In this document: piece after piece, positions 9,263 to 11,873 of the stretch
How positions within the stretch are numbered: position 1 is the stretch's first letter
How the letters are laid out: each line of letters starts with the position of its first letter
Source of the DNA: Pseudomonadota bacterium
GTDB lineage: Bacteria > Chloroflexota > UBA5177
DNA: 44,397 nt
Assembly (NCBI GenBank): GCA_021324655.1
Contig: JAJPIP010000066.1
Coordinates: 1 to 44,397 of the forward strand
Direction of reading: 5' to 3'
Made by a program: the position numbers and the translations under genes
Notes under the pieces: model-generated
Told to the model about the DNA's origin: nothing
The model's database searches: none
What the model saw: the letters and a program-made list of their open reading frames with translations, nothing else

Positions 9263-11818
9263 TTACTCGCCGAGGGCGTAGGAGACGGCGTCGCCAAGGG
9301 AGAGGGTGCGCCCGCTCTCCCAGGCGGTCGACCACCGATCGGCGGCGAACTGCGGCCGGGCGGCATCGACCCAGCGGCGATAACTGGCCTCTTCCACCAC
9401 CGAGAGAGGAGATCCGATCTCCTCTCGTAGCGCCTCCGCGGCTCCCCATAAAGTGGCGGCTCGTTCGCTGTGTCCTTGTCCAGCGGCAACGGCTCCCAGG
9501 CCTTCCAGACAGAAGGCTATGCCGGATTTCTCTCCCAGTTCGGTAAAGAGGGAAAGGCTCTCATGGAGGAAACCAATTGCACGTTCGTACCTTCCTTGCG
9601 CCTGGGCGGCGCTACCGAGACTCACCAGGGAGACCGCGATGTCCCAAGTATCACCCAATTGCCGGCCGATGGCCAGGGTCTCCTCCAGCAGATCGGTGGC
9701 CCGCTCGTAGTCACCCTGCTCCAGGGCAATGGCTGCGAGATTTGCCAGCGGCCCTGAGGTGACTCTGGCATCGCGCAACTCTCGAGACAGCGCCAGAGCC
9801 TCTTCGTACCACGTGGTGGCCTCCTCATACCTTCCTCGACTATGGGCCACAACCGCCAGATTGTTGAGGCAGATGGCGACAGCCTTGGTATCTCCGAGCT
9901 CCCGCCGAAGTGCCAGGCTCTGCTCCAGGTAGTTGACCGCGGAGGGATAGTCCCCCTGTGACGTCGCGACCATTCCTACCCCATTGAGCACCTTCGCCCG
10001 CAGCGCCGGCTCCGCCGGAGGCTGAGCCAGCGTTGCCTCCATCCACAGCCGCGCCTCGGCGAAATGCGTGTGGTACAACCAGAAACGAGTAAGAGTGCCT
10101 ACTAACCGAGCGAACTCGTCTCCACCCTGCTGCTGGAAATACATCAGAGCCGCTCGCAGGTTGTCGTGCTCCCTCTCGAGACGTTCCAACCACAGAGCCT
10201 GCTCGGGGCCCCCCAGCTTCGCATCAGCCTCTTGAGCACGGACTAAGAAATGTACTGCATGCGTCCGCCGCGTGGCTTCTGCGTCGCCCGCCTCCTCCAG
10301 CCGCTCGCCGGCATACTCACGGATGGTTTCCAGCATCCGGAAGCGAGGCTCCTCCGCTTCCTCGTGTCGCATCAGGCTCTTCTCCACCAGGGACGCGACG
10401 GCATCAAAGATGTCGAGGGCGAGATCTCCGGACGCGTGGAGCACCGCCTCGGCGTCGTCGAGGGTGCAGCCACCACTGAAGACAGAGAGTCGCGCAAAGA
10501 CTTGACGCTCCGCCTCGTCCAGGAGGTCATAGCTCCAGTCGATAGTGCCGCGTACGGTCTGCTGTCGGCGGGGAAGATCCTTGGCTCCCCCCGTCAAGAG
10601 GGGTAAGCGCCTCCTCAGCCGGGAGAGGAGAGCCGGAGGCGGAAGGAGGCGGATGCGGGCGGCGGCGAGCTCGATGGCCAGTGGCAGGCCATCCAGGCGC
10701 TGGCAGATACCCACTACCGCATCCACGTTGGTAGACGTCAGCGCAAATCTCGGATCGACCGCTCTGGCCCGCTCGACAAACAGAGCGACCGAGTCGTACC
10801 TCGCCACGTCGTCCAGGGAGGACCGGTGACTGAGGTCGGGCACGGAGAGCGACGGTACCGCGTACTCGTGCTCCCAGGCCAGGCGCAAGGGAGTGCGGCT
10901 GGCGGCCAGTATTTTCAGGTGCCGGCATCCGTCAAAGAGTTCGGCCAGGAGCGGAGCGGCCTCCAGCAGGTGCTCAAAACTGTCCAGCACCAGGAGGACC
11001 CGTTTTGCCCGCAGGTAATCAATGAGACTCGCGGCTAGACCTTTGGCCTCTTCTTCCCGCACCCCCACAACGGCCGCAATGCTCGACAGGACCAGTTTCG
11101 GATCGGAGAGAGGTGCCAGTGGGACGAGGTGGACTCCGTTGGGAAAGGCGGCGATAGAGCGCGTGGCGACCTCCAGAGCCAGACGAGTCTTGCCGGTACC
11201 GCCCGGACCGGTGAGCGTGAGGAGCCGGACTTCCGGTTTTGCCAAAAGGCTCTCCACCGCAGCCAGCTCCTCTTCCCTTCCGAGGAAAGGGGTCGGTTGA
11301 GCAGGAAGTTGCTGCCTTACCGGCTCCGCCGCCCCGCCGTCTCTCTTTCCGGATATCGTCCGGAGCAGGAGGTCGAGGTCATACTCGAAACGGGCATCAC
11401 TCAGCTCCAGAGCGTTTCGTCGAGCGAGGGGGACCAGCGGGTCAGGTAGATCCTGGGCAGCCGGCATCTTTGCTCCCTGGACCAAGACAGGGATCACCAT
11501 GATGCCCCGCTCGAGCGCTGTGGCGACCTCTCGTCGCACGAAGTCCTCGGGGTCATCGAGGCGTCGGTGACCCTCAGCGTCCATGGCGTTGAGCCAGCGG
11601 GGACCGATGAGCGCCAGGAGGACGTCACAGGAACCCACAGCCTCCTGCAGGACCTGCACGAAGTCCTCCCCGGGATGAATGCTCGCGAGGTCCATGAAGA
11701 CGTTCGCGGAGCCGAGGTGATTTCTCAGCCGCTGCGCAAGCCATCCGGCGTGGCCGGCACTATCGTCCCTCCGGTAGCTGAGAAAAATCGTCGGCATCTC
11801 GGGCGACGTGACAGACAT
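9263..11818 (-). CDS. TIR-STAND ATPase-TPR protein, putative NAD-consuming sensor
   Basis: About 851 residues from the ATG at 11818, in three parts. Residues 8-155 are a TIR domain: IFLSYRRDDSAG opens it, and FVRREVATALERG aligns with the segment of SARM1-type TIR domains holding the catalytic Glu (here Glu97). Residues 175-510 are a STAND/AfsR-like NTPase with Walker A TGPGGTGKT (203-211), Walker B LLVLDSFE ending near 282, and the GLPLAIELAAARI motif. Residues 608-807 are five TPR units with an exact 40-residue period (QGDYPSAVNYLEQSLAL and its repeats). STAND ATPases of this type often carry LuxR or cyclase domains; here an N-terminal TIR replaces them. Ligand binding to the TPR part could trigger oligomerisation and NAD cleavage, as in TIR-NLR-like immunity. 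That role is inference. Confidence 0.9.
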   Translation of the reverse strand: MSVTSPEMPTIFLSYRRDDSAGHAGWLAQRLRNHLGSANVFMDLASIHPGEDFVQVLQEAVGSCDVLLALIGPRWLNAMDAEGHRRLDDPEDFVRREVATALERGIMVIPVLVQGAKMPAAQDLPDPLVPLARRNALELSDARFEYDLDLLLRTISGKRDGGAAEPVRQQLPAQPTPFLGREEELAAVESLLAKPEVRLLTLTGPGGTGKTRLALEVATRSIAAFPNGVHLVPLAPLSDPKLVLSSIAAVVGVREEEAKGLAASLIDYLRAKRVLLVLDSFEHLLEAAPLLAELFDGCRHLKILAASRTPLRLAWEHEYAVPSLSVPDLSHRSSLDDVARYDSVALFVERARAVDPRFALTSTNVDAVVGICQRLDGLPLAIELAAARIRLLPPPALLSRLRRRLPLLTGGAKDLPRRQQTVRGTIDWSYDLLDEAERQVFARLSVFSGGCTLDDAEAVLHASGDLALDIFDAVASLVEKSLMRHEEAEEPRFRMLETIREYAGERLEEAGDAEATRRTHAVHFLVRAQEADAKLGGPEQALWLERLEREHDNLRAALMYFQQQGGDEFARLVGTLTRFWLYHTHFAEARLWMEATLAQPPAEPALRAKVLNGVGMVATSQGDYPSAVNYLEQSLALRRELGDTKAVAICLNNLAVVAHSRGRYEEATTWYEEALALSRELRDARVTSGPLANLAAIALEQGDYERATDLLEETLAIGRQLGDTWDIAVSLVSLGSAAQAQGRYERAIGFLHESLSLFTELGEKSGIAFCLEGLGAVAAGQGHSERAATLWGAAEALREEIGSPLSVVEEASYRRWVDAARPQFAADRWSTAWESGRTLSLGDAVSYALGE

Positions 11819-11824
11819 GAGGGG

Positions 11825-11830
11825 ATTATA
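11825..11830 (-). promoter_or_regulatory. Consensus TATAAT, leaderless start of TIR-STAND gene
   Basis: TATAAT is followed by six bases (CCCCTC) and then the ATG at 11818, with no Shine-Dalgarno. The expected transcription start falls on the A of the ATG. No good -35 was found at 16-18 bp. This favours 11818 over the in-frame starts at 11842 and 11797. Confidence 0.6.
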
Positions 11831-11873
11831 CCGATGTGTCACCTCGACAGGTACGGCGGCAGCGAGCTATCTT

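Follow-up and report, generated by a model that had tools for sequence, protein, structure and literature searches.

Bacterial TIR-NB-TPR proteins have already been described (PMC9806590; PMC7159879), and for the maize TIR-NB-TPR protein ZmTNP-IIa cell death has been shown to require both the NADase site of the TIR domain and the P-loop (PMC9806590). In PH0952 and MalT, an arm and a TPR sensor keep the ATPase in a closed state (PMC6468293). Recently, a 2026 preprint has placed SARM1 within a mainly bacterial TIR clade, clade 8 (PMC13142454), and another preprint has reported DUF4062 as a TIR-like NADase, the bacterial members of which give phage defence via abortive infection (PMC13174449). 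A survey has also cautioned that the presence of a catalytic Glu is no guarantee of activity (PMC7075850). In this study, we report the computational characterisation of a TIR-STAND-TPR gene located on a Chloroflexota contig (JAJPIP010000066.1), the whole 44,397 nucleotides of which were analysed and are referred to as the window. The window protein is probably a cell-suicide sensor; we give a probability of about 0.58 to its being a single-protein NLR-like receptor with an NAD-cleaving output, derived from an AfsR-type regulator and ending in growth arrest or death.

The open reading frame at positions 9263-11842 of the reverse strand is intact, with 859 open codons counted from GTG 11842. 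ATG 11818 was preferred over this GTG as the start, giving 851 aa, because the TIR domain then starts about 10 residues downstream and the catalytic Glu falls at position 97, the number that the initial annotation had counted from 11818. That annotation had also described an N-terminal TIR domain with a Glu matching the SARM1 catalytic Glu, a full Walker A/B STAND core and five TPR units with an exact 40-residue period, laid out as in NLRs. All of this was recovered: Pfam matches above the cut-off were TIR_2 at residues 11-145 (E 1.4e-14), AAA_22 and NB-ARC within 186-303, and three TPR_12, and together with the AlphaFold model these confirmed that one chain combines a TIR domain with an AfsR-type STAND ATPase and five TPRs. 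The GC content of the gene (0.64) is close to that of the window (0.65), and a recent foreign origin is therefore not visible. The features of the locus are listed in the table.

Table. Features of the TIR-STAND-TPR locus, in window coordinates
Feature	Position	Strand	Basis
TIR-STAND-TPR gene, 851 codons plus stop	9263..11818	-	ATG 11818 start
TIR domain, residues 10-156, predicted SARM1 type	11351..11791	-	Pfam; model pLDDT 92; PDB fold; profile
Glu97 codon, counterpart of SARM1 catalytic Glu642	11528..11530	-	alignment
Linker, residues 157-177, low model confidence	11288..11350	-	residues 158-170 pLDDT <50
Nucleotide-binding domain, AfsR-type STAND core, residues 178-330	10829..11287	-	Pfam AAA_22/NB-ARC; match of AfsR of known structure to residues 169-518; model
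Walker A GPGGTGKT, residues 204-211	11186..11209	-	motif
Walker B LLVLDS, residues 275-280	10979..10996	-	motif
Helical and winged-helix part of STAND core, residues 331-509, with GLPL and FRMLETI	10292..10828	-	motifs, model
Arm-like helical region, residues 513-598	10025..10282	-	model helices; arm named by analogy with PH0952 (PMC6468293)
Five TPR units of exactly 40 residues each, residues 604-803	9410..10009	-	Pfam, period, model
C-terminal cap, residues 804-851, common to regulator paralogues	9266..9409	-	paralogue alignments extend to 849-851
TATAAT hexamer, 6 nt before ATG; promoter function unsupported	11825..11830	-	

A profile built from 73 related TIRs, with PDB sequences kept at E 1e-3 or better, matched 20 PDB sequences, 19 of which were SARM1 or nematode TIR-1 (E down to 8e-17) and the remaining one a plant TIR (5e-4). 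The profile alignment placed the window sequence PEDFVRREVATAL opposite SARM1 CKDWVHKEIVTAL, and therefore Glu97 corresponds to SARM1 Glu642 and Phe93 to SARM1 Trp638 (SARM1 residues being counted along the full-length chain). Glu97 sits in the alpha-C region and is conserved in 74 of 75 sequences. At BB-loop position 45 the window TIR has Ala, and 52 of 75 relatives have Asp or Glu. The AlphaFold model of the domain, which the initial annotation had proposed as a check, was confident (pLDDT 92, pTM 0.87), and its closest PDB folds were SARM1 TIRs, several of them ligand-bound (TM up to 0.89, by target). Judged by sequence and modelled fold, the TIR domain is of SARM1 type; its subfamily would lie within the mainly bacterial clade that holds SARM1, and it is predicted that it probably cleaves NAD.

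The STAND core retains further intact ATPase motifs besides Walker A and B (ASR, 306-308; GLPLAIEL, 377-384, with GLPL at 377-380) as well as its winged helix, and in the MHD-like motif FRMLETI (493-499) Leu replaces His. The TPR units are free of indels and correspond to five helix pairs in the AlphaFold model. The whole-chain model reached a pLDDT of 86.6 and a pTM of 0.62, at which the relative placement of the domains is insecure; ranked against PDB folds, it was closest to PH0952 (6mfv), followed by the tetramer core of the plant TIR-NLR RPP1 and then by Apaf-1 and WRR4A.

By its sequence, the ATPase-TPR part (hereafter the chassis) is a member of a large regulator family, with 39-56% identity to its relatives. 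About a dozen paralogues, 39-49% identical over long stretches, are present in the window's own genome, and their scanned N-termini carry HTH_31/HTH_3, BTAD or no recognised domain, one of them having an HTH and a weak cyclase match. Outputs among 52 relatives from the phylum, a single protein being able to match more than one domain, were cyclase (21), HTH (14), BTAD (5), TIR (3), GerE (2), and kinase, DUF4062 and TCAD9 (1 each), in agreement with the earlier statement that this ATPase branch more often bears HTH or cyclase domains. A Pfam scan of the window chain gave no match to HTH or BTAD, and an assignment to the AfsR-like transcription regulators was rejected as a class on this absence of a DNA-binding domain. 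The presence of the full TIR-STAND-TPR order on an AfsR-type chassis is patchy, with at least 2 of 400 phylum genomes carrying it (the window's genome, and G330 with two copies). DUF4062 was found on the same type of chassis by direct comparison in two proteins of G006 and one of G290, and two further G006 DUF4062 proteins were placed on it from neighbouring coordinates on the same ORFs. Loci L019 (1045-3867), L201 and L203 have this DUF4062 arrangement, and their products are probably also NLR-like NADases.

On a tree of 65 ATPase sequences the three TIR-bearing proteins are separated from one another; the minimum number of changes was three, and the starred branches force two. Constraining the three fusions to one clade cost 45 log-likelihood units, and the AU test did not reject a single TIR origin (p 0.098). 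The window ATPase shares 56% identity with a relative lacking a TIR, against 41% with the other two TIR-bearing proteins. The TIRs of the three fusions likewise do not form one group on the TIR tree, and the TIR of the fusion at L106 has 74% identity to the TIR of a protein without STAND from the same genome. The scatter of the fusions on the ATPase tree suggests repeated grafting, and at least two grafts of a TIR onto the chassis are likely, though not proven. More tentatively, and at somewhat less than even odds, a Chloroflexota STAND-TPR regulator chassis may have been turned more than once into an NLR-like suicide receptor by a swap to an NADase output (a SARM1-type TIR at least twice, DUF4062 separately), so that the same machinery for sensing and oligomerisation would serve regulators and killers alike, and a single genome would carry both HTH and TIR versions.

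The neighbours of the gene are of housekeeping type, as the initial annotation had stated: MFS, MoxR, DUF58 and DUF4129 genes precede it on its own strand, with a gap of 55 bp between the end of DUF4129 and ATG 11818, and a DUF1385 gene lies downstream. A PADLOC scan of the window neighbours found no defence gene and gave weak generic AAA matches only. Beside the other two fusions (L106 and L107) no defence gene was recognised apart from a generic kinase, the PD-T4-6 matches beside L107 being rejected as a generic Ser/Thr kinase. The three fusions occupy three unrelated neighbourhoods, among which neither the enrichment in defence islands that had been proposed as a check nor a fixed metabolic link was evident. 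In genome G001, from the same family, DUF1385 comes next after DUF4129, across a gap of only about 150 bp; in G002 the slot is occupied by an ORF of about 390 aa whose product by eye reads like an N-acetylglucosamine-6-phosphate deacetylase. As the slot is empty in one genome and filled by a different gene in the other, the window gene looks accessory, set between conserved neighbours, a pattern that fits defence genes and other cargo as well.

The proposal that the gene is a stand-alone system with its own TATAAT promoter held in so far as no defence gene was recognised beside it. A private promoter of sigma-70 type was not supported: the hexamer occurs once in the window against 1.37 occurrences expected by chance, and no -35/-10 pair was found upstream of the gene on its strand. 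The search of the window's own genome for a TATAAT pattern of leaderless transcription covered spacings of 3-5 nt, and the spacing in the window is 6 nt. The gene is as likely to be co-transcribed as to form a unit of its own, because it follows so closely on the same-strand MoxR-DUF58-DUF4129 row.

Several other TIR proteins were observed. The window's genome encodes a second TIR-NTPase-TPR protein of 1118 aa (L011:6673-10026; G000:C52, about 151.7-155.0 kb), with an AAA_16-type rather than an AfsR-type ATPase. At L012:4962-12059 (G000:C101), one protein combines two TIR-like domains with a membrane segment; nearby genes read by eye like those for a patatin-like phospholipase, a small membrane protein and a SLOG-like membrane protein, and the region looks, also by eye, like a conflict locus; at L013:97-3716 (G000:C6), a WD40-like ORF is followed by a tandem-TIR protein resembling that of L012. 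TIRs of the same subfamily as the window TIR were seen in a 1274 aa protein, followed by SF1 helicase-like and phospholipase-D-like domains (L068:1114-4935; G171:C62), and, with TPR-like repeats and a formylglycine-generating-enzyme-like domain, at L072:3648-5777 (G195:C45), these domains being assigned by eye.

From the precedent of PH0952 and MalT and the whole-chain fold, the likeliest mechanism is one of ligand binding to the TPRs, an ATP-bound oligomer and NAD+ cleavage by the TIRs. At rest, as in those two proteins, the TPR sensor and the arm would keep an ADP-bound STAND core closed. The TPRs would bind a ligand, probably a protein and possibly phage-derived, upon which the core would take ATP and then oligomerise; the TIRs, aligned in the oligomer, would form composite active sites and cleave NAD+ via Glu97, and growth would stop or the cell would die, conceivably as immunity. 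Such a receptor would have arisen when an AfsR-type regulator exchanged its DNA-binding or cyclase output for a SARM1-type TIR. By analogy, ZmTNP-IIa is a direct functional precedent. The SARM1-like TIR, the likeness of the whole-chain model to PH0952, RPP1, Apaf-1 and WRR4A, the intact ATPase motifs, the occurrence of DUF4062 on the chassis, the variable slot and the rarity of the fusion support this explanation. Counting against it are that the closest ATPase relatives are regulators and not immune proteins, the lack of an adjoining defence gene, Ala45 in the BB loop, and the survey's caution (PMC7075850).

The kinship with regulators also admits the reading that the TIR makes a small messenger at a low level (a cADPR isomer or similar) for physiology, without killing or immunity. 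Among the chassis relatives, signalling or DNA-binding outputs predominate, the cyclase-bearing relatives presumably controlling physiology via a messenger, and the position of the gene behind the MoxR-DUF58-DUF4129 row speaks for the same reading; active SARM1-type TIRs, however, mainly hydrolyse NAD+, and we consider it unlikely. A search of the genome for one messenger receptor, STALD (PF18185), gave no match, a result that weighs little because the search had no positive control. Less probable again is a TIR that acts as a non-enzymatic scaffold and recruits a partner once oligomerised: animal TIRs are often scaffolds, and Ala45 deviates from the subfamily, but the catalytic Glu and the SARM1-like fold are retained and no obvious partner gene adjoins. 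That a TIR gene and a STAND gene were wrongly joined during assembly is very improbable; the genome is a draft of 114 contigs, but the frame is continuous, its GC content is even along its length (0.63-0.64), and two fusions with identical domain order occur in another genome.

A SARM1-type TIR on a regulator-type chassis is unusual, as is the recurrence of NADase grafts there, which the comparisons make likely. If the receptor reading is correct, bacterial regulators and NLR-like death receptors would share one ATPase and sensor, and relatives within one genome would differ chiefly in output. Domain swaps could then directly test how STAND activation is coupled to differing outputs, and the case would bear on the origin of TIR-NLRs.

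Among known systems, Thoeris was rejected as an assignment, there being no adjoining ThsA-like partner and only a partial and weak match to the ThsB model. A match reaching into the P-loop region at the Streptomyces locus L172 was rejected as a fusion, since the locus encodes a short TIR protein without STAND, and a single-sequence scan of genome contigs gave no match. The AP-ATPase-TPR proteins with an N-terminal TIR of FxSxx peptide systems (PMC7159879; NF040586) share the general architecture of the window protein; the FxSxx_TPR model NF040586 did not match it at E 1e-3 or 0.01, and that assignment was rejected.

The bacterial TIR-NB-TPR proteins and plant TNPs (XTNX; PMC9806590) have, like the window protein, a TIR followed by an NB-ARC-like ATPase and TPRs; set against the description of the TNPs, the window protein differs in its ATPase of the AfsR/regulator branch, its 40-residue TPRs and its regulator-type C-terminal cap. 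AfsR and the HTH, cyclase and BTAD STAND-TPR regulators share the ATPase-TPR part but have a DNA-binding or cyclase output where the window protein has a TIR, and PH0952 and MalT (PMC6468293) likewise combine a STAND core with a TPR sensor but are regulators without a TIR. The Swarozyc DUF4062 NADases (PMC13174449, preprint) belong to a family different from TIR, although in G006 and G290 DUF4062 also occurs on the STAND-TPR chassis; those Swarozyc proteins that have been characterised carry a different auxiliary domain in place of a STAND core of the window type. The TIR of SARM1 is the best PDB match by both sequence and fold, with the catalytic Glu in the context DWVHKEI as against DFVRREV in the window protein; SARM1 relies on ARM repeats and SAM domains for its gating, whereas the window protein has a STAND ATPase.
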